From assembly GCA_015067255.1 (NCBI GenBank), contig SVMS01000013.1, forward strand, positions 1 through 47,059: a stretch of 47,059 bases of DNA. Direction: 5' to 3'. The DNA comes from Oscillospiraceae bacterium (GTDB lineage Bacteria; Bacillota; Clostridia; Oscillospirales; SIG519). Under the pieces are notes generated by a model. That model had not been told where the DNA came from. It ran no database searches and worked only from the letters and a program-made list of their open reading frames with translations. This document shows positions 5,900-44,811 of this stretch, one piece after another. The position numbers and the translations under genes are program-made. Each line of letters starts with the position of its first letter. Within the stretch, counting starts at the first letter, position 1.

Positions 5900-7024
5900 A
5901 TGATAAAAGCCGAAAAGACACTTCATTATATATGGCTTACTCTTTGCGGCGGTGTCGGAACGGCTCGCACCTCGAAGGTTTTCGGGCATTTTAAAAACGA
6001 TGCTACCGCTGTCTACAAGGCAAAGCTCAGCAACTATCTTGATGTTGACGGATTGTCGGAAAAAGATGCTCAGCTCTTTTGCAATAAGGACTTGAGTGAG
6101 GCAAAAAGAATTGCAGAGCTGTGCAGGAATAAAGGAATTGACATAATAGCCTTTGAGGATGAAAGATATCCTCAAAGGCTAAAAACAATTAAGCCCCTTT
6201 GTCCTGTTCTATATGTAAAAGGCGTTATACCTAAAGGCATTGACGGATTTTCAATAGCTGTGGTAGGAACAAGACGTCCTACCGAATACGGCTTTTTCTG
6301 TGCTAAATATATCGCACAGGAGCTTGCCGATAATGGAATTATTGTAGTCAGCGGAATGGCAGAGGGTATTGACGGAGCAGCGCAAAGACAGGTGCTTGAC
6401 AATCAAGGTCAAACGGTGGCAGTGCTTGGCTCATCGGCAGACTATCCCTATCCTTATATAAATAGAGATATCTATAACAGGATTTCAAAAAGCGGAGCAA
6501 TTATAAGTGAGTATCCGCCTATTACAAAGCCTTTTCGTCAGAATTTTCCTGTAAGAAACCGTATCATTTCGGGTCTTTGTGCAGGAACGGTTGTTATAGA
6601 GGCGGGAGAAAGAAGCGGAGCTCTCATAACTGCCCATTGGGCACTTGAACAGGGTAAGGATATTTTTGCAGTGCCCGGAGAAATAACAAGCGCTCAAAGT
6701 GCGGGAACTAACCTGCTTATTAAAGACGGCGCAATTATGGTAACAAAAGCGCAGGATATAATTGATTATTATGACGGTATTTATTCAATAAATAAAAAGG
6801 AGATTAAAAAAGAAAAAACTTCTGAGCTTGAAGTCAGTTCCGAGGCTCAAAGAGTTTTAAGCTTTCTCTCTAAAACTCCAATTCATATTTCCGAACTGTC
6901 GGAACGTTCTCAAATAAGCATAGCTGAGCTGTCAGTTTCTATAATTGAGCTTGAAATTGCAGACAAGATTATTTGTCAGGCAGGCGGATTTATAAGACTT
7001 GGGTATGATGAATTCACTAAGTGA
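5900..7024 (+). CDS. dprA: DNA processing protein DprA/Smf
   Basis: Rossmann-fold single-strand DNA-binding protein that loads RecA on incoming DNA in transformation. The 374 residues comprise an N-terminal helical region, the Smf domain with VVGTRRPTEYG, SGMAEGIDGAAQ and FPVRNRIISGL motifs (about 115-290), and a C-terminal winged-helix-like region (about 305-374). The last codons and the stop lie in a perfect inverted repeat (arms 7006-7017 and 7021-7032), so the 3' end is part of the adjoining hairpin element. No other competence gene is in the window. Confidence 0.95.
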   Translation: MIKAEKTLHYIWLTLCGGVGTARTSKVFGHFKNDATAVYKAKLSNYLDVDGLSEKDAQLFCNKDLSEAKRIAELCRNKGIDIIAFEDERYPQRLKTIKPLCPVLYVKGVIPKGIDGFSIAVVGTRRPTEYGFFCAKYIAQELADNGIIVVSGMAEGIDGAAQRQVLDNQGQTVAVLGSSADYPYPYINRDIYNRISKSGAIISEYPPITKPFRQNFPVRNRIISGLCAGTVVIEAGERSGALITAHWALEQGKDIFAVPGEITSAQSAGTNLLIKDGAIMVTKAQDIIDYYDGIYSINKKEIKKEKTSELEVSSEAQRVLSFLSKTPIHISELSERSQISIAELSVSIIELEIADKIICQAGGFIRLGYDEFTK

Positions 7025-7258
7025 ATTCATCAACTAAGTTTGCCCTGACGGGCAAGTGAAGTTATCTGAGATAGTGAAGTTTACTTCGTAAGTGAAGTTC
7101 TGCCTTGCGGCAGAATGGCAAACTTAACTTCATTTTTGAAAATCAAAAATTTCACTGCGTAAGCAACTTCACTTTGAACGGATGTTCAAAACTTCACAAA
7201 ATGCTTTGCATTTGAACTGTTCATTTTCAGCGTTGCATAGCAACGCATCAATATAAAT
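7006..7258. repeat. Multi-hairpin array element, type A copy 1
   Basis: A series of short palindromes separated by a constant linker. After the dprA-end palindrome, hairpins TGCCC/GGGCA, TATC/GATA, TTAC/GTAA and TCTGCC/GGCAGA are spaced by GTGAAGT. The motif GGCAAACTTAACTTC follows at 7118-7132; its first nine bases pair with AAGTTTGCC at 7036. Beyond it, hairpins TTTTTGA/TCAAAAA, TTGAAC/GTTCAA and AAATGC/GCATTT are spaced by ACTTCAC, the reverse complement of the first linker. The same plan recurs near 38203 and 42311 with different stems. It is not coding. Confidence 0.75.
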
Positions 7259-12350: not shown

Positions 12351-13370
12351 AAAAAGAAGTTAATAGTTATAGCAATAGTATCGGCGTTAGCTATCGGAGC
12401 AATTTTTGCTATTGGTTTAATATTTAACAGAAATGAAAAGCTGTCTATTCTCCCACAAGCAATAACAGAGATTAACTATAATAATTATATACTTGATAAT
12501 TATATTGATTATAAAGAAAATCAATTTGCTTGGCTGAAAGCAAATTTATGGGGTGCAAAATTAACCGTTGTTGACAATGATGGCAATTATAGTTATTTTG
12601 ATAAAATTGATGCTCCGTTTCAAATCAACAGCAAACAAATTATTTTTGTTAAAAATAATAAATTGCAGACAAAAGATATTGTCAAAAACGAAACCGTTAA
12701 AATTGCAAATAATGTTGATAAATTTATTGCGTATCAAAATTATATCATTTATAGCTCTGTCAGCATTTTCGATGATAATGACGGAAAATGGAAAAACAAG
12801 CTTTACGTATATGATTTATCGTCAAAAGAGAGCAAAGTTATTTATGAAAATATAACGCAGTTTTATATTCATAAGAAAAAGCTGTTTGCTATCAATGACG
12901 ATAAATGGCTTGTGGAAATTTCATTGAGTGATTACAACACAAAAAATATTATTGATTTCGAAATAGACCAATACCCTTTTTATGTAATGCCCCAAGGAAA
13001 TAACATATTATATCGAAGCTCTAATGAATTGAAATTTCTTAATTTAACCGACAAAAGCATAAAAACTGTTTCTATTGTTGAAAGTCAATATGCAAACAAT
13101 AGGATAAGCTATATTTGTGACGATAATAATGTGTTTTTATCCTTTCAGGCTACAAAAACGAACGGCTCAATCGTAACTGATATCAAAGATGAAAACAACG
13201 GAGTGTGGGCAATAAATACGCTAACCTTTGAAAAGAGCAAGCTTTGTTCTGATGTTTTTGACCGATTGTATTTATTTGACGGCGAATGGCTGTTCGGTAC
13301 AAAAAACAATTCACTTTATAGAATTGATATTAAGACAAAACAAGTAACGAAAGTTTCAAAGGATAGGTAA
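12348..13370 (+). CDS. Membrane-anchored beta-propeller-like protein
   Basis: A 340-residue product with a GTG start after GGGGGAGAGATAGG. The N-terminal membrane segment (about 4-27) lacks a lipobox. The remainder has repeated short beta-strand blocks of the type found in DUF5050/prolow-density receptor-like propellers, for example KLYVYDLSSKESKVIYEN, NELKFLNLTDKSIKTVS and NSLYRIDIKTKQVTKVS. Such domains usually sit outside the membrane and may bind wall or sugar ligands. Its duplicated leader links it to the gene at 17348. Confidence 0.65.
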   Translation: MKKKLIVIAIVSALAIGAIFAIGLIFNRNEKLSILPQAITEINYNNYILDNYIDYKENQFAWLKANLWGAKLTVVDNDGNYSYFDKIDAPFQINSKQIIFVKNNKLQTKDIVKNETVKIANNVDKFIAYQNYIIYSSVSIFDDNDGKWKNKLYVYDLSSKESKVIYENITQFYIHKKKLFAINDDKWLVEISLSDYNTKNIIDFEIDQYPFYVMPQGNNILYRSSNELKFLNLTDKSIKTVSIVESQYANNRISYICDDNNVFLSFQATKTNGSIVTDIKDENNGVWAINTLTFEKSKLCSDVFDRLYLFDGEWLFGTKNNSLYRIDIKTKQVTKVSKDR

Positions 13371-13383
13371 AGGGGCTAATAGA

Positions 13384-13992
13384 ATGAAAAAGATTGCTTT
13401 TATTATGGCAATAGCTGTTTTGTTGAGCTTTTCTGGGTGTCAGAGCAAAGAGCCGGGTGCTTCATCTGAGATAAATGAAAGTGATATATCTTCGCAGATT
13501 GCGGAAGCATATGACGGATATTTAGAAAACATATATGATGTCTACGATATTATTGGTTCGGACAGTACTTTTTATGATGCTATGCGGTATAATGATATAG
13601 ATAAAAAGGCGGATTTGATTTTAAAAGACTTAGTTACAACAAGAGAATTAGAAGCAGGCGCTATATCAATTTATGAAATGTGGAAGGATGAGCTTGAATA
13701 TTCTCTTAGCGAAATTGAAAAGGTCTTATCAAAAGAAAAATTCGAAAAACTTTTGACATCGCAAAGGGATTGGGAAAAATATGTTCAAAGCACCCTTTCC
13801 TGCGATAAAGATATTATGACAGATGAAAACGGCGGTTTTGCATCAGAGCTGTGGTTTAAGTTTCCGCTTGAAAGAGCAAAATTATATCGTGCAAGAACAA
13901 TAAAAATCAAGTATTTGCATTACCTTGTTGAATCGGAAATGTATGATTCCGAAAGCCAATATAAATCTCTTACTTTTAAAAACAAGGCATAA
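13384..13992 (+). CDS. Lipoprotein with LprI/DUF1311-like domain
   Basis: A 202-residue lipoprotein. The signal peptide MKKIAFIMAIAVLLSFSGC carries a lipobox (SFSGC) with the lipidated Cys at residue 19. After a Ser-rich linker comes a helical domain ending with LLTSQRDWEKYVQSTLSCDK, which resembles the DUF1311/LprI signature (QR.W..Y....C). LprI is linked to lysozyme inhibition in some bacteria; that role is not shown here. Its first 65 coding bases are almost identical to those of the lipoprotein genes at 15025 and 16266. Confidence 0.7.
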   Translation: MKKIAFIMAIAVLLSFSGCQSKEPGASSEINESDISSQIAEAYDGYLENIYDVYDIIGSDSTFYDAMRYNDIDKKADLILKDLVTTRELEAGAISIYEMWKDELEYSLSEIEKVLSKEKFEKLLTSQRDWEKYVQSTLSCDKDIMTDENGGFASELWFKFPLERAKLYRARTIKIKYLHYLVESEMYDSESQYKSLTFKNKA

Positions 13993-14019
13993 TTACAGCA
14001 GAGAAAAGGCGGGCATAAA

Positions 14020-14496
14020 ATGAAATATAAAAAAAGTACTGTTAAAGTTGTTTTATTGCTTATTACTTGTTGCTTAATAGTTTTGTGTGGTGGTATAGCT
14101 TGTTATATGATAAAACAAAACAGCAAACACAGTACATTTGGCGGATTTGGAGCAATTATGGTTGCATACATAGTTTTTTTTATATCGGCTTTTTTAAAAA
14201 TAAAGGCTCAGTTTACACAAACGATTGAATTAAATGACAAAATTGTTTTTTATGATAGTGGAAGTGAGCTTTTTATACAATATAGTGAAATAGAAAAATT
14301 ATCATACTCGGGAACTAAATTTGTTCCTATGAGTGAAATAATGACAATACATTCAAAAGACAAAAAGATATATATAGACTTTAATTTTTTAGAATACAGA
14401 AAAATATGGGCAGAAATTATTAACGAATGTCAAAAACGAAATATAGATTGCAAAATTGATGATAAGCTTATAATGAGAGTTTGTCGAAACGCTTAA
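14020..14496 (+). CDS. Two-helix membrane protein with a PH-like cytoplasmic domain
   Basis: A 158-residue protein with two predicted membrane helices (about 9-31 and 43-63) and a C-terminal domain of about 95 residues. The beta-rich pattern there (QTIELNDKIVFYDSG, LFIQYSEIEKLSYSG, KIYIDFNFLEYRKIWAEI) resembles bacterial PH-like domains of small membrane proteins. The last five codons and the stop lie inside the hairpin element at 14483, so the native C terminus may have been altered by that insertion. Confidence 0.6.
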   Translation: MKYKKSTVKVVLLLITCCLIVLCGGIACYMIKQNSKHSTFGGFGAIMVAYIVFFISAFLKIKAQFTQTIELNDKIVFYDSGSELFIQYSEIEKLSYSGTKFVPMSEIMTIHSKDKKIYIDFNFLEYRKIWAEIINECQKRNIDCKIDDKLIMRVCRNA

Positions 14497-14676
14497 AAGC
14501 GTTTCAATAAGCCGATTTTATCGGCTTCGTGCAATTGAAATTTCATACTATTCAATTGCACACGACACTCATTTCAATGAATATGTTCAATTACCGTTGG
14601 TAATTGTTTGCGAATTCAAAGAATTCGCAGTCGAAATAAGGCTTTGACCTATTTCGACATCCACATAGTCATTATA
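14483..14676. repeat. Multi-hairpin element, type B copy 1
   Basis: Six hairpins in a row: GAAACGCTT/AAGCGTTTC (14486), AAGCCGAT/ATCGGCTT (14509), GTGCAATTGAA/TTCAATTGCAC (14529), CAATTACC/GGTAATTG (14588), TGCGAATTC/GAATTCGCA (14609) and GTCGAAATA/TATTTCGAC (14630), ending near TAGTCATTATA. Copy 2 at 18543-18737 has the same order. The second hairpin is identical, the linkers are related, and the other stems are changed on both arms. It occupies most of the gene-free interval 14497-14734. Confidence 0.8.
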
Positions 14677-14734
14677 AAGAGAATAAAAGAATATAAAGGC
14701 TGATATACAGCAGGGAAACGGAAAGGTTGATTTT

Positions 14735-14983
14735 GTGAAAATTTATGCCGAAAAGGATATAGAAACCGATAGTGTTGAGATATTACTTAATTATCAAGAA
14801 TTAAAAACTTTAGCAAGTGCTTTGACAAAATTTGAAGATGAAGTTAAGCGATTTAAAATAGAAAATGAAGATAAAAAAGAGTTAGGATTTACGCACTTGC
14901 ATTTTAAAGACTGCGGTTTAATAGGTAAAAACAGCAATTCGGATATTGTTTTTTATGTAGATTTGAACGAAAAGATTGATTAA
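14735..14983 (+). CDS. Small hypothetical protein
   Basis: An 82-residue cytoplasmic-looking protein with a GTG start after AAAGGTTGATTTT. It contains a central helix (YQELKTLASALTKFEDEVKRF) between predicted beta strands and ends with DIVFYVDLNEKID. I do not recognise it. It stands alone between a hairpin element and a lipoprotein gene. Confidence 0.55.
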   Translation: MKIYAEKDIETDSVEILLNYQELKTLASALTKFEDEVKRFKIENEDKKELGFTHLHFKDCGLIGKNSNSDIVFYVDLNEKID

Positions 14984-15024
14984 GATAGCGGTTGTTGTTT
15001 TGTTAGCGAAAAGGAGTTGATAGA

Positions 15025-16203
15025 ATGAAAAAGATTGCTTTTATTATGGCAATAGTTGTTTTGTTGAGCTTTTCGGGCTGTCAGAGCTCTGATATAACAT
15101 CCTCTGAATTTTCAGGTATACCTCTTGATGAAAACTGTAAAAATGTTGAGTTTTCAAGCATTGATAAAAAGCTTATGGTAATTCCGTCGGACTCTGAAAA
15201 TATGTTTTGCTTATCGGAGGACGGTACATATAACAAAAGAATATTTACAGATTTTTATATTTTTAACCCTTTACGCAGCACTCCGATAATAGAAATGTCT
15301 GAAAATAAATGGCTTTTGTTATATAAAATAGAGCCGAGTTATTATCTGACTGAAAACAAAACGATTGTTGATAATGAGGGGAAAATTCTGGCAGATAAAA
15401 ATAAAAAAGAATTTTCCGATGCACCTGATTATCATACTAAACGCAATCCCGTGAACCTTTGTATTAAATATAATGAGTTTTCTAAAAGCATTGTTGCAAC
15501 ACAACAGTTTCCGTATAATGCATGGAGTGAAATAGCGGCAATAAAACACAGCTTTTTTACAATATCAACAGAAGCAACCGAAAAATATGAATTTTTGGAT
15601 AGTGATACTGTTGCAATAATGGATATTGACGAGAACTATTTAGACGGAGAAAACAGCTTAGGAGTAGAAAGAGCTTTAAACTGTGGCTGGCTTAAAGAAA
15701 AATATACAAATGTATTGGCTGATTGCAGCTTGAATTATCTGTATTATGAAGAGGTTGAAAAAGATTTATCTCCCAAAATATACCGAAGAAACATTGGCGC
15801 CGAATACAGCAAAGATAAAAATATAATTCTTTATAAAAAAGATGCCTGCAATCCGATTGTATCGTCAGATGATTCTATTTTTGCGTATAACAGTTGCAAA
15901 AATGCTTCTTACAATAGTGAGAATAAATGGCATACAGTAGTAGAAAAAAACGGCAAAGTGATTATTGAATTTGATAACCAACGAATTGTTCTCATTGATG
16001 AATTTGATAATGAGCTTTATGTAATTGATCCCAACAGCTTTTCACTTGAAATTTATTCATATGATGCGCTTAAGCAGGTAGGTAAAGCAAAATTAGATAA
16101 TAATCTGATTTTTCCTCAGATAATTAAAGGTAAGCTACAGTACACTTGTCCTGTATATAAGAACGAAAAAGTTGAAAAGTACATTGTTAAGCAGGAACAG
16201 TAA
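15025..16203 (+). CDS. Lipoprotein of unknown function
   Basis: A 392-residue lipoprotein with the same signal peptide as its neighbours (MKKIAFIMAIVVLLSFSGC) and the lipidated Cys at residue 19. AAAGGAGTTGATAGA precedes the ATG. The mature part is unlike the other two proteins with this signal; it has many short beta-type repeats and five or more cysteines. It may be a beta-propeller-like exported binding protein, but I recognise no catalytic motif. Confidence 0.65.
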   Translation: MKKIAFIMAIVVLLSFSGCQSSDITSSEFSGIPLDENCKNVEFSSIDKKLMVIPSDSENMFCLSEDGTYNKRIFTDFYIFNPLRSTPIIEMSENKWLLLYKIEPSYYLTENKTIVDNEGKILADKNKKEFSDAPDYHTKRNPVNLCIKYNEFSKSIVATQQFPYNAWSEIAAIKHSFFTISTEATEKYEFLDSDTVAIMDIDENYLDGENSLGVERALNCGWLKEKYTNVLADCSLNYLYYEEVEKDLSPKIYRRNIGAEYSKDKNIILYKKDACNPIVSSDDSIFAYNSCKNASYNSENKWHTVVEKNGKVIIEFDNQRIVLIDEFDNELYVIDPNSFSLEIYSYDALKQVGKAKLDNNLIFPQIIKGKLQYTCPVYKNEKVEKYIVKQEQ

Positions 16204-16265
16204 AGCTATAAAAATAGTGGCTTTTGCTACCGTAACCTTTTATATTATAAAAAGGAGTTGATAGA

Positions 16266-17309
16266 ATGAAAAAGATTGCTTTTATTATGGCAATAATTGT
16301 TTTGTTGAGCTTTTCGGGGTGTCAGAGCAAAGAGCCGAGCGGGAATGACAATTCAAGCGCTGTTGAGTCAAGGGTTTACAACAACATTGTTACTGCTAAA
16401 GAGGTTGTTGAACGTGACGGATATATTTATTTTATTCACTACGGCGTTGTATATAAAAAAGGACTTGAAGAAGAAACGGCGACTAAAATTGCTCCCTATG
16501 AAGACTACTATGAAATTAACAAATATAGAAGTGCTTGTTTGCTTGATTATGAGGATTTATACGCTGTTTTTGTTGATAGAGATAGGGTAGACAGCGATAA
16601 AAGCCGAGCGACTTTTTATAATATTTCAAAAGAGAAAACAGAAAAAGAGGTTATTTTAAGCGGCTATGTGTTTGAAGAATCAATTACCGCTTGCGATAAT
16701 GACATTTATTATATTACAAATTTAACATCTTCTTCATCGAGGACTTTATGTCTTCTTAAAAGCAGCGGAGAACAGATGCCTATTGCAACGGATGTGGGTA
16801 GTAAATATTTTGTACTAAAAGATAAAATACGCTATTACAGCGAAAGTGAGAAAGTTTTTTATGAATGTGATTTAGACGGTTATAAAAGAACTGTAATTGA
16901 AACGGGAATAGACAAAGAGAAAATTTTCATTTCGCATTTTTACATGGATTATATAGTGGTACAAACGCATACAAATGAAACGTTTATTTATAATTTAGAA
17001 AATAAAAAATTGCAAATTGTTCCTTTATGGACTAATATTGAAAGAAACGGATTTGCAGATAATTACTGTTATGTAAATAATTATTATACACCGGTTAAAA
17101 TCAACCTTGATGACGGTACTTACAGTAAAATTTATGACGGTTTATGGGTAAGACTTAAAGTTTATAAGAATTATGTCTATATGGATGCTGTATCTTCAGG
17201 TACTGAAGATGAGCCGATTGAAGGACCTTATCCTACAGGACTTTACAGAGTTACTCTTGACGGCAAAGATTTCAAAGAGATTTTTTTGAACAGTAGTTTA
17301 AATGGTTAA
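16266..17309 (+). CDS. DUF5050-like lipoprotein (predicted beta-propeller)
   Basis: A 347-residue lipoprotein with signal MKKIAFIMAIIVLLSFSGC. Mature repeats such as DGYIYFIHYGVVYKKGLEE, CDNDIYYITNLTSSSSRTLC and NYVYMDAVSS followed by GLYRVTLDGKDFKEI are typical of DUF5050 propeller proteins of Clostridia. AAAGGAGTTGATAGA precedes the ATG, identical to the leader at 15025. Its last codons (IFLNSSLNG) are encoded by the duplicated leader cassette that also lies before 12348, so its C terminus probably joins older coding sequence to a copied leader. Confidence 0.7.
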   Translation: MKKIAFIMAIIVLLSFSGCQSKEPSGNDNSSAVESRVYNNIVTAKEVVERDGYIYFIHYGVVYKKGLEEETATKIAPYEDYYEINKYRSACLLDYEDLYAVFVDRDRVDSDKSRATFYNISKEKTEKEVILSGYVFEESITACDNDIYYITNLTSSSSRTLCLLKSSGEQMPIATDVGSKYFVLKDKIRYYSESEKVFYECDLDGYKRTVIETGIDKEKIFISHFYMDYIVVQTHTNETFIYNLENKKLQIVPLWTNIERNGFADNYCYVNNYYTPVKINLDDGTYSKIYDGLWVRLKVYKNYVYMDAVSSGTEDEPIEGPYPTGLYRVTLDGKDFKEIFLNSSLNG

Positions 17310-17350
17310 AATGGTTGCTGCTGACTTTTAGCAAAGGGAGAGATAGAATG
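17284..17350 (+). repeat. Duplicated gene-leader cassette, copy 2
   Basis: Same ordered words as 12294-12350, with an extra TTTAAATGGTT and GACTTTT. It overlaps the end of the 16266 gene and supplies the ribosome site GGGAGAGATAG of the 17348 gene. Confidence 0.8.
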
Positions 17351-18292
17351 AAAAAGATTATACCGTTTATTTTATTTGTGCTTATTATTATGAGTTTTTC
17401 TTCCTGTCAACCACAGCAAAAGGAGATTATTTACGGAAATACCATAGGTAATTTTTTGAATACAGGGGGATTTCTTTCTTATAACGGTGGAGTGTTTTTG
17501 TCTGAGGAAACAGAAGAAAATAAGCGTGTACTAAAGTGCATAAAAGACTGTCCTTGTGAGGAATATCCTATTCCGTTGGAGGCATCTGAGCTAAATATTA
17601 TAAAAGATGATTTGTATTTTATTTGCGGTAGCGATATACAAAAAATGAATATGAAAACTAAAAAAATTACAGACATCACAGAGATAAATGCAACTATCAG
17701 TAATTTGTTTATTGTAAATGATGATATCTATATGCTGAAAGGATCTAATGGCAATTTAACAAAGTACAATATTAAAACAAAAAAAACAGTCGATTTCAAC
17801 ATCAGCGATATTGGGTATTATGCTGTTTATGATAATTATATTTATTACATACGCAATGCATTTTCAGAAGGCAGGAATTTATACAGGATGTCTGCAAAAG
17901 ACGGAAGCGATAAAACTTTGATTTCCGACAAAGCTTTTCTCTTTCATATTTTTGATGACAAATTATATATAGTACACAATGATTCTCAAAATATATTTTC
18001 TTATGACCTTGACGGAAAGAACGAGCAGCTTGTTTATTCAGGACAAGTGTTCAGACTTAATGATTGGGGAGGAAAGCTTTATATATGCGATAACAAAATA
18101 AATCAAATTCTCGCATTGGATATAGCTTCGGGGGAAACCGAAAAAATATGTGATGCTTCTGCACTTTATCTTGATATTACAGACGGAATAATGTCTTATT
18201 ATGAATGGATAGATAATCCTAAAAATCCTGGTAGCCCTACATTAGTATTGATAGACCTTGAAACTAAAGAAAAGACTATTATATATGAATAG
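17348..18292 (+). CDS. DUF5050-like lipoprotein (predicted beta-propeller)
   Basis: A 314-residue lipoprotein from the ATG at 17348, chosen because AAGGGAGAGATAGA lies just before it; an ATG at 17315 is further upstream without such a site. The signal MKKIIPFILFVLIIMSFSSC ends in the lipidated Cys at residue 20. The mature part is built of about seven repeats of the form DDLYFICGSDIQKMN or DKLYIVHNDSQNIFSYDLDG. It is last in the exported-protein run and is followed by two hairpins. Confidence 0.7.
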   Translation: MKKIIPFILFVLIIMSFSSCQPQQKEIIYGNTIGNFLNTGGFLSYNGGVFLSEETEENKRVLKCIKDCPCEEYPIPLEASELNIIKDDLYFICGSDIQKMNMKTKKITDITEINATISNLFIVNDDIYMLKGSNGNLTKYNIKTKKTVDFNISDIGYYAVYDNYIYYIRNAFSEGRNLYRMSAKDGSDKTLISDKAFLFHIFDDKLYIVHNDSQNIFSYDLDGKNEQLVYSGQVFRLNDWGGKLYICDNKINQILALDIASGETEKICDASALYLDITDGIMSYYEWIDNPKNPGSPTLVLIDLETKEKTIIYE

Positions 18293-18542: not shown

Positions 18543-18737
18543 TTGTCGAAGCGATAAAATCGTTTCGACAAGCCGATTTTATCGGCTTAATGCAAAATAA
18601 ATTTTATGAATTTATTTTGCACAACAATTATTGAAATGGGTATGGTCAAGTTTTCTAAGAAAACTTGACACCAAATCAAAGATTTGGTGTCGAAACCACG
18701 CAAAAATGCGGGGTTTCGACTAACGATAGCCATTATA
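18543..18737. repeat. Multi-hairpin element, type B copy 2
   Basis: Same plan as 14483-14676. Hairpins are GTCGAAGCGAT/ATCGTTTCGAC (18545), AAGCCGAT/ATCGGCTT (18570, identical in copy 1), TGCAAAATAAATT/AATTTATTTTGCA (18591), GTCAAGTTTTCT/AGAAAACTTGAC (18645), ACCAAATC/GATTTGGT (18670) and GTCGAAACC/GGTTTCGAC (18689), ending TAGCCATTATA. An unpaired middle segment containing TTGAAATG and TATG corresponds to TTTCAATG and TATG in copy 1. The rest of the interval 18393-18922 is AT-rich, and I see no gene in it. Confidence 0.8.
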
Positions 18738-38087: not shown

Positions 38088-38161
38088 GGCACCATAGCCA
38101 AGCGGTAAGGCAGAGGTCTGCAACACCTTTATCCCCAGTTCAATTCTGGGTGGTGCCTCCA
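38088..38161 (+). tRNA. tRNA-Cys (GCA)
   Basis: Cloverleaf with acceptor GGCACCA/TGGTGCC, anticodon loop CTGCAAC (anticodon GCA), T loop TTCAATT, discriminator T and encoded CCA. It borders an accessory island. Confidence 0.95.
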
Positions 38162-38164
38162 AAA

Positions 38165-38197
38165 CAAAAAGCACTTCGAAAGAAGTGCTTTTTGTTT
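38165..38197 (+). terminator. Terminator after tRNA-Cys
   Basis: AAAAAGCACTTC and GAAGTGCTTTTT form a perfect hairpin followed by GTTTT. Its 3' half is also the start of the 129-bp direct repeat copied at 42287. Confidence 0.85.
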
Positions 38198-38307
38198 TGG
38201 AAACTAAGTGTGCCTTGCGGCACGATAAGCACACCTTCGGTGCGTGAAGTATGCCTGCGGCAAGTGAAGTGCCTGCGGGCATGGGTGGCACACTTAACTT
38301 CGCTTTG
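38179..38307. repeat. Island-flanking direct repeat, left copy
   Basis: This 129-base segment matches 42287-42415 without gaps and with four differences (125/129). It begins in the 3' half of the tRNA-Cys terminator and runs through the left half of a type A hairpin array. Beyond 38307 the two copies diverge sharply. Confidence 0.9.
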
Positions 38308-38376
38308 CGGTGCAACCGCAACACTTCACTATGCGAAGCATAACATCACTTTGGCAAAGCCAAAACTTCACTTCTA
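38203..38376. repeat. Multi-hairpin array element, type A copy 2
   Basis: Starts ACTAAGTGTGCC, whose arm AAGTGTGCC pairs with GGCACACTT (38287-38295). Hairpins such as GCACC/GGTGC and GCC/GGC are separated by GTGAAGT. After TTAACTTCGCT come TTGCGGT/ACCGCAA, ATGC/GCAT and TTGGC/GCCAA, separated by ACTTCACT or ATCACT. It has the same plan as 7006-7258. Confidence 0.75.
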
Positions 38377-39786: not shown

Positions 39787-39874
39787 TTTCAGAAAGAATA
39801 TTATAATTATATTTTTAAGAAAATCAGGTTTTCAGGCACACTTCATTCGTGTCACTAAGTTCAAAACACCCAAA

Positions 39875-39932
39875 ACAAAAAGCACTTCGAAGGGAGACAC
39901 TTCGTAAGGAAGTTGTCTCCCCTTTGCTTTTG
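39875..39932. repeat. Fragment of the terminator/hairpin repeat
   Basis: AAACAAAAAGCACTTCGAAG matches the 5' half of the tRNA-Cys terminator region at 38163, after which a new hairpin appears (GGAGACACTTC/GGAAGTTGTCTCC). CACTAAGT, found in type A arrays, occurs just upstream at 39855. It appears to be a decayed third copy inside the island. Confidence 0.5.
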
Positions 39933-42088: not shown

Positions 42089-42286
42089 AGTAAGACCACC
42101 ATCAAAGAGCCCGCCAACAGCTTTGCTCAGAGTATCTGAGAAAGTGTCATAGTGGGTTACACACTTTGAAAAGGTGTGTAACAATAAAAACGGCATAGCC
42201 AATAGCTATACCGCTTAACGAAATCAATAATTCAGTTTGAATATAAGAGCTACCCCTTGGGGCACCTTCCTTAGGTCGGGTGCCAC

Positions 42287-42415
42287 AAAGAAGTGCTTTT
42301 TGTTTTGGAAACTAAGTGTGCCTTGCGGTACGATAAGCACACCTTCGGTGCGTGAAGTATGCCTGCGGCAAGTGAAGTGCCTGCGGGCATGGGGGGCACA
42401 TTTAACTTCACTTTG
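42287..42415. repeat. Island-flanking direct repeat, right copy
   Basis: Gapless match to 38179-38307 with four differences. It starts with the 3' half of the tRNA-Cys terminator although no tRNA is present here, as expected for a duplicated junction. Confidence 0.9.
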
Positions 42416-42482
42416 TGCGAAGCACAAAACTTCACTATGGCGTTAGCCATAACTTCACATTCGGCAAGGCCGATACTTCACT
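42311..42482. repeat. Multi-hairpin array element, type A copy 3
   Basis: The left half equals copy 2. The right half has new stems TTGTGC/GCACAA, ATGGC/GCCAT and ATTCGGC/GGCCGAT, separated by AACTTCAC(T), where copy 2 has TTGCGGT/ACCGCAA, ATGC/GCAT and TTGGC/GCCAA. Confidence 0.75.
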
Positions 42483-44059: not shown

Positions 44060-44811
44060 GTGGAAATAAACCCCCGGTTCTACCGGGGGAAGATAAATAC
44101 TTTAGTATATGTAAAAATAAAACCTCCGTGATATAATTGTGTAAGGTTTGGCGACCGCATTACACAAAAAAACGGAGGAATTATAACATGATAAAGAAAG
44201 ATAGAAACGAAATAAAGAGCAGTGCACATTCAAGGTACAGATGTCAGTATCATATAGTATTTGCACCGAAATACAGAAGACAAGAAATATATGGTCAAAC
44301 AAAGAAAGATATAGGAGAAATACTGAGGAAATTGTGTGAGCAAAAGGGAGTAGAGATAATAGAAGCGGAGGCATGTGTAGATCATATACATATGCTGGTA
44401 AGTATCCCGCCGCATATAAGTATAGCACAATTTATGGGATATCTCAAGGGAAAAAGTTCACTAATGATATTTGATAGACATGCAAATTTAAAATATAAGT
44501 ATGGATCGAGGCGTTTCTGGTGCCGAGGCTATTATGTAGACACGGTGGGAAGAAATAAGAAAGTAATAGCTGAATATATTAGAAATCAATTAGAGGAAGA
44601 TAACGCCTCGGACCAGATAAGTCTCAAGGAATATATGGACCCGTTTATGGGTGCCAAGAATAAGTAGGCTAAAAAAAGACAGCCGCACGTGAGCGGCTGC
44701 CAGTGATTGTAATGCGGTGTCAAACCTTCAGACATCCCTTTTAGGGATGTAGCCTGTATTAGCCCCTTATAGGGGCTGTGCAAGCCACCAGTTTAACTGG
44801 TGGTCTTGACT
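44060..44811 (+). mobile_element. IS200/IS605-type insertion sequence (tnpA only)
   Basis: A left-end hairpin (CCCCCGGT/ACCGGGGG at 44071-44092), one tnpA gene, a hairpin GCCGC/GCGGC after it, and right-end hairpins CATCCC/GGGATG, AGCCCC/GGGGCT and AGCCACCAGT/ACTGGTGGTCT. No terminal inverted repeat or accessory tnpB is present, as in IS200-like elements. Exact ends are estimated from the hairpins. Confidence 0.8.
44188..44667 (+). CDS. tnpA: IS200/IS605 family transposase TnpA
   Basis: A 159-residue Y1 HUH transposase starting at the ATG after CGGAGGAA; a longer frame from 44137 lies in the left-end region. The HUH motif is DHIHMLVS (about 66-73), and the catalytic Tyr lies in the helix VDTVGRNKKVIAEYIRNQ (about 128-145). 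It cuts and joins single-stranded DNA at hairpin-marked ends. The reading frame is intact. Confidence 0.93.
   Translation: MIKKDRNEIKSSAHSRYRCQYHIVFAPKYRRQEIYGQTKKDIGEILRKLCEQKGVEIIEAEACVDHIHMLVSIPPHISIAQFMGYLKGKSSLMIFDRHANLKYKYGSRRFWCRGYYVDTVGRNKKVIAEYIRNQLEEDNASDQISLKEYMDPFMGAKNK

Follow-up and report, generated by a model that had tools for sequence, protein, structure and literature searches.

Layout of the element at the dprA 3′ end

We analysed contig SVMS01000013.1 of the Oscillospiraceae bacterium assembly GCA_015067255.1 over positions 1 to 47,059 of the forward strand; this whole stretch of 47,059 nucleotides is referred to as the window. Between dprA and the L33 gene lies an element in which the heptamer GTGAAGT, and later its reverse complement ACTTCAC, alternates with hairpins of differing sequence. 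An earlier note had described these constant linkers and variable palindromes correctly, with GTGAAGT in the first half and ACTTCAC in the second, and had assigned them to 7006-7258. Script-checked coordinates place the element proper at 7033-7197, so that only this part of the earlier span stands; 7198-7258 is probably no part of it, and 7229-7258 looks like fragments of a different hairpin-array family that occurs on contig C21 of the same genome.

All features of the element are read on the forward strand. Its left end is abutted by a perfect 12-bp palindrome (TGATGAATTCAC-TAA-GTGAATTCATCA, 7006-7032), whose left arm (7006-7017) is dprA coding sequence and whose right arm contains the dprA stop codon, TGA at 7022-7024, as first noticed from the sequence. 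The left end, ACTAAGTTTGCC, occupies 7033-7055 with the first hairpin, TTGCCC-TGAC-GGGCAA. Three GTGAAGT linkers follow (7056-7062, 7074-7080 and 7092-7098), each leading into a hairpin (TATCTGAGATA at 7063-7073, TTACTTCGTAA at 7081-7091 and TCTGCCTTGCGGCAGA at 7099-7114). The outer pair that had been proposed to tie the first half together is present: AAGTTTGCC at 7036-7044 pairs with GGCAAACTT at 7117-7125, which closes this half. The second half begins with two degenerate linkers and two hairpins (7126-7165), namely AACTTCA (7126-7132), TTTTTGAAAATCAAAAA (7133-7149), ATTTCAC (7149-7155) and TGCGTAAGCA (7156-7165). It finishes with the segment 7166-7197, made up of an ACTTCAC linker (7166-7172), the hairpin TTTGAACGGATGTTCAAA (7173-7190) and a last ACTTCAC (7191-7197) that forms the right end of the element. 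The two halves are inverted arrays. GTGAAGT occurs 17 times in the window where 4.5 occurrences are expected, a count reached in none of 100 shuffles, and the RNA folding z-score of the array is -7.3 relative to shuffles.

Dispersed copies in this genome and in other gut Clostridia

The pattern ACTTCAC-N(6-36)-ACTTCAC has 20 matches in the 1.84-Mb genome and one for the reversed control. These 20 matches make up about eight arrays, three of them within the window, and copies are ~165-250 bp long. The second window copy (38158-38371, forward strand) lies behind a tRNA, where the palindrome TCCAAAACAAAAAGCACTTC/GAAGTGCTTTTTGTTTTGGA abuts it and takes in the TCCA of the tRNA. The third (42287-42481, forward strand) is 97% identical over its first 129 nt to 38179-38307; it has the right arm of the tRNA-terminator palindrome of the 38-kb copy and lacks the left arm, as if the arm had moved along with the element. 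We also observed 46-nt inverted arms at 39870-39915 and 42263-42308, 76% complementary and 2.35 kb apart, which correspond to the left and right halves of the tRNA-terminator palindrome at 38158-38201, as if the 2.3 kb between them were the loop of that palindrome.

Beyond this genome, a 17-base query taken from the central junction found at least 118 stretches in named genomes; among the stretches listed, most come from uncultured Clostridia and Oscillospiraceae of animal guts. Copies elsewhere number at least about 100, nearly all in uncultured gut Clostridia, and the few junction matches in other groups were set aside as chance matches that fall inside genes and have no array. The linker-palindrome pattern is thus widespread and multi-copy, both here and in other gut Clostridia. 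Its layout is constant while the hairpins vary (274 distinct hairpins), and about 90-95% of stem positions hold Watson-Crick pairs. Decayed coding sequence, the explanation that the earlier note had held against its own reading, is excluded by the copy number and the conserved layout.

Arrays with unlike linkers can be neighbours: on contig C2 of the same genome (locus L013, 1590-1740), an ATGATGT/ACATCAT array directly adjoins a GTGAAGT/ACTTCAC array, which suggests that different linker types insert side by side. At six loci, a small palindromic insert (GGGGTTCCCCGAA...TTTGGGGGTTC) lies within array hairpins and seems to be a second, nested element that enters hairpins. The window holds other repeats as well. 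A 110-nt unit occupies positions 1-243 as two exact repeats and part of a third, and a hairpin-rich repeat of 69 nt at two intergenic sites (14494-14562 and 18555-18623, 77% alike) is perhaps another small element. Several adjacent genes at 13369-17359 share a nearly identical start (ATGAAAAAGATTGC...) and are apparently duplicated lipoprotein-like genes.

Empty sites and the left junction

The element at locus L268 is absent from the syntenic site in two sister species of one genus (L287, L291), and that at L272 is absent from the syntenic site of L286, which belongs to the same genus. Since sites are empty in sister species, arrays insert. The flanks of the empty sites are 83-91% alike, a divergence that hides the exact ends and any target-site duplications, which with terminal inverted repeats would mark a MITE. 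Comparison of sequences thus shows arrays to be dispersed, present at some orthologous sites and absent from others. The source genome is the sole member of its genus and family in the compared set, and a DprA query against the contigs of the compared genomes returned no relatives. Most copies occupy the space between a gene end and the gene after it, frequently following a terminator, and the earlier suggestion that the element abuts or was inserted at the end of dprA holds in this evolutionary sense.

At 77 of the 117 distinct left ends, the element directly adjoins a palindrome that is perfect or almost so and has a stem of at least 9 bp; 34 left ends have no palindrome. Where the left palindrome is a terminator, the mirror symmetry of its stem runs on through the A and T tracts, and the median stem length is 19 bp, against 10 bp for other terminators; a T-run past the stem is found at none of the 23 left-junction terminators and at 84 of 131 others. 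The left arm reaches into the end of an open frame at seven junctions; the clear cases are dprA, a uracil-methyltransferase (GHVETIVCL) and an OmpR-type regulator (WGVGYKFEVL). The uracil-methyltransferase junction occurs in several species, and both of its arms change together. Because coding ends are constrained, the simplest reading is that the right arm was copied from the left one, and we infer that the right arm of the dprA palindrome (7006-7032) was made by snap-back copying at insertion. Some subfamilies keep the sequence of both arms of the left palindrome, which travels with the element; together with the 34 of 117 left ends that have none, this indicates that snap-back would not be needed every time.

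The main rival to the snap-back model is that the left palindromes are not products of insertion, and that the element instead picks perfect palindromes, such as bidirectional terminators, as targets. Many left palindromes are indeed terminators, and some control stems are long and perfect too. Such a preference for ready-made palindromes does not readily explain left arms that lie in constrained coding ends (dprA, GHVETIVCL, WGVGYKFEVL), arms that co-vary between species, or A-tract interruptions that are mirrored exactly. We consider it unlikely, with a real chance of being right, and prefer snap-back copying.

Arrays accompany PF05635 genes

PF05635 is the 23S rRNA IVP/S23 family, a four-helix bundle (IVP below). 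Several array copies are directly followed by a PF05635 gene, and the source genome has four such genes. Three adjoin arrays, with GTGAAGT linkers (on contig C3), AGCTAAAT linkers and GATGATAT linkers respectively; the fourth has a degenerate hairpin only. The dprA copy contains no PF05635 gene, and there is none on the window contig. GTGAAGT/ACTTCAC inverted arrays are found both at the dprA copy and at the C3 IVP, which makes the two cognate in type. Also on C3, a TGTAATC/GATTACA linker-hairpin array lies just downstream of the CTTCAC-type IVP gene (locus L179, 820-1040).

PF05635 is present in 138 of 295 genomes of the order. All 25 array-rich genomes (at least four type-A pattern matches, with at most one in the control) carry it, compared with 113 of the 270 others (p = 2e-9), and at least three linker-hairpin units were detected in 23 of 70 IVP windows versus 2 of 257 controls (p = 3e-15), p-values being inflated by the shared ancestry of related IVP loci and by controls drawn from loci of array-bearing genomes. 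For the second comparison the IVP genes were picked regardless of arrays, and the detector was blind to linker sequence. In these sequences, then, array-rich genomes always carry PF05635, and arrays adjoin its gene. Many IVP genes have no hairpin array and are flanked on both sides by tandem heptamers that are inverted relative to each other. The commonest flanking 6-mer occurs at least six times in 59 of the 70 IVP windows and in 32 of the 257 controls; at some IVP loci the heptamer is not clear.

On a tree of 74 IVP proteins, linker type changes 9 times compared with 30.9 when shuffled, and none of 200 shuffles is as low, although the tree is built on few columns and its clustering is inflated by near-copies. 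The IVPs of hairpin arrays form one clade of 40 (support 99/99) among heptamer-flanked IVPs. The constant heptamer is thus seen to change along with the IVP subfamily across the proteins compared. Between host families, IVP identity reaches 97%, which suggests recent transfer. The C3 IVP is homologous to PDB entry 2rld, which has five chains, and the PF05635 family structure Xcc0516 is a homopentamer of four-helix bundles (PMC4990558).

Phyla beyond Bacillota were sampled through plasmid records, and inspection by eye found heptamers bracketing the IVP gene on named plasmids of Nostoc (AGTAGGG), Pseudanabaena (AAAGCTA), Anabaena (AGGTGAC) and Gemmatirosa (GGAGGGC). On Azospirillum lipoferum plasmid AZO_p2, a PF05635 insert with inverted-heptamer flanks sits inside a plasmid-borne 23S rRNA gene. 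The 23S rRNA intervening sequences of Coxiella and Leptospira, regarded as parasitic, likewise combine a PF05635 gene with heptamer repeats, which in Coxiella are GACAGAT heptamers ahead of the S23p gene (PMC4990558). The elements described here differ in lying outside rRNA genes, in having heptamers spaced by hairpins and in having many copies without the gene. The dprA copy, placed between dprA and L33, does not belong among those intervening sequences, which lie inside an rRNA gene and are excised by RNase III. Dispersed intergenic heptamer arrays are also known as heptanucleotide or STRR repeats, with units TAACTGA (PMC4679880) or GGGAATC and GGGGA(T/C)T (PMC4692102); these are tandem and without hairpins, and the two papers draw no link to IVP.

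IVP genes have been reported within cas loci (PMC3936711, PMC10910872), and at three loci on cyanobacterial plasmids we found heptamer-flanked IVP genes between cas6/cas4 or cas10/cmr3. They also occur among conjugation and ribonucleotide-reductase genes, so that cas operons seem to be just another place of insertion, and the earlier CRISPR-associated label of IVP may reflect insertion. These reports, with the constant short repeat and variable spacers, might suggest a CRISPR-like array, and the likeness to repeat-spacer arrays pointed out in the earlier note holds for that plan. It does not extend to a memory array: each spacer pairs with itself, spacers are shared among copies and species, the repeat has 7 nt, the array itself is dispersed and multi-copy, and cas genes do not seem to accompany it. 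CRISPR arrays have repeats of about 23-47 nt with unique, non-palindromic spacers and cas genes, and we give this explanation practically no chance.

Y1 transposases were considered as the shared mover. REP/BIME-like repeats moved by an IS200-type or RAYT Y1 transposase resemble our elements in pairing a conserved short tag with a hairpin, in their inverted groups and extragenic position, and in being non-autonomous copies whose partner gene lies elsewhere; three Y1 genes are present in the genome, one of them in the window. That gene (44137-44667, IS200-like, PF01797) has no GTGAAGT-type array in its locus. Y1_Tnp was found in only 11 of the 25 array-rich genomes and in none of the four g68 genomes, which have the most copies, and was rejected as the common mover. 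The palindromes of REPs are conserved in sequence and have a cognate Y1, whereas the hairpins here vary and a four-helix bundle takes the place of the Y1 transposase as partner. The arrays are thus no REP/BIME with RAYT by these marks, and an origin of this kind is very remote.

Gut-1 RNA and the folding strand

An Rfam scan of the window at the gathering threshold returned tRNAs only. In a permissive scan, 7031-7103 (forward strand) aligned to the whole Gut-1 RNA model (RF01706, model positions 1-77 of 77) with 45.3 bits and an E-value of 5e-8, which lies under the family's gathering score of 50. The stretch has the whole Gut-1 consensus structure of three hairpins with heptamer linkers, and four sister copies pass the cut-off. 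At one of these, L245, which was chosen for its IVP gene rather than for Gut-1, a 66-bit Gut-1 lies just upstream of that gene. The Gut-1 consensus linker, GUGAAAU, is a sister of GTGAAGT, and its hairpins are likewise separated by heptamers. The whole-model match and the passing sister copies indicate that Gut-1 is the left half of elements of this kind. The model covers that half only; going by the main text of the description, the inverted right half, the IVP gene, the linker family and the insertion behaviour are outside the published motif. Gut-1 came from human-gut metagenomes and was there judged a certain RNA and not cis-regulatory (Weinberg et al. 2010, PMC2864571).

Tandem G.A/A.G mismatches occur in 16 distinct instances in the hairpins of the right half, where the complementary T.C/C.T type is absent. 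It is therefore probably the IVP-sense strand that folds, either as RNA or as single-stranded DNA. Right-half stems also have G.T over A.C (20 versus 6), by itself a weak strand signal. This one-sidedness, together with the whole-model match to a curated Rfam family judged to be RNA and the frequent placement behind gene ends and terminators, is what a stand-alone structured ncRNA would show, one with a host function, for example in a 3′-UTR or in trans, with IVP as its RNA-binding partner and passive spread. Dispersed multi-copy occurrence with presence or absence at orthologous sites is instead the behaviour of a mobile element, and near-identical IVPs across host families and the unlike neighbours of copies also speak against a resident RNA. 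We regard the ncRNA explanation as rather improbable.

The single-strand signal, the junctions at 3′ ends and the resemblance of PF05635 to Avd, a retroelement accessory protein (PMC10053308), would also suit a retroelement in which IVP acts like Avd and a reverse transcriptase is supplied in trans. RVT_1 was found in 2 of the 25 array-rich genomes, so a non-RVT_1 polymerase would be required; reverse transcriptase was rejected as the shared mover, and we consider this account highly improbable. Diversity-generating retroelements, in which Avd is a partner protein of related fold, differ from the arrays, which have no reverse transcriptase and no template/variable repeat pair; the RVT_1 count sets the arrays apart from that class.

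Discussion

We propose, with roughly two chances in three of being right, that the dprA feature represents a mobile element which in its full form joins a linker-hairpin array to a PF05635 gene, here in a non-autonomous copy that lacks the IVP gene. The protein partner, the heptamer code and the Gut-1 overlap go beyond the earlier note. IVP is the only consistent partner seen across array carriers and would, we infer, drive insertion. In the proposed mechanism, an IVP pentamer would bind the heptamers, which the hairpins would hold apart as single-stranded linkers on a folded IVP-sense strand of RNA or single-stranded DNA. Insertion would take place at the 3′ ends of genes and terminators, where the host 3′ end would fold back on a small hairpin and copy its own upstream strand, giving a perfect palindrome as at dprA, before synthesis switched onto the element. 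To our knowledge, PF05635 proteins have solved structures and no known function or catalytic activity; copying and joining are therefore probably done by host enzymes, which would supply the polymerase and the joining enzyme.

More tentatively, at somewhat less than even odds, these elements could represent a class of mobile elements that combine inverted heptamer arrays with an IVP/S23 protein recognising its own heptamer, that carry no transposase or reverse transcriptase, and that insert by host-primed snap-back at gene 3′ ends. This class would be widespread, with cases seen here in Bacillota, Cyanobacteriota, Pseudomonadota and Gemmatimonadota. It would take in Gut-1, the heptamer/STRR repeats and the 23S rRNA intervening sequences, either as members or as remnants. 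The Gut-1 family and the IVP-bearing rRNA inserts were known; new here is the association of arrays with PF05635, which unifies IVP, the heptamer repeats and Gut-1. We found no publication that links arrays, PF05635 and Gut-1 in a literature search that was thin on subscription journals and bioRxiv.

As far as we know, Gut-1 has been an orphan RNA, and the heptanucleotide repeats recorded in cyanobacteria, xanthomonads and Beggiatoaceae have gone unexplained. The association joins three unexplained things, the IVP protein, the 7-letter repeats and the Gut-1 RNA, and makes it directly testable whether an IVP binds and mobilises its own heptamer. On this view, the IVP genes in cas operons would have got there by insertion; the palindromes at the left junctions point to an unusual mode of DNA joining.
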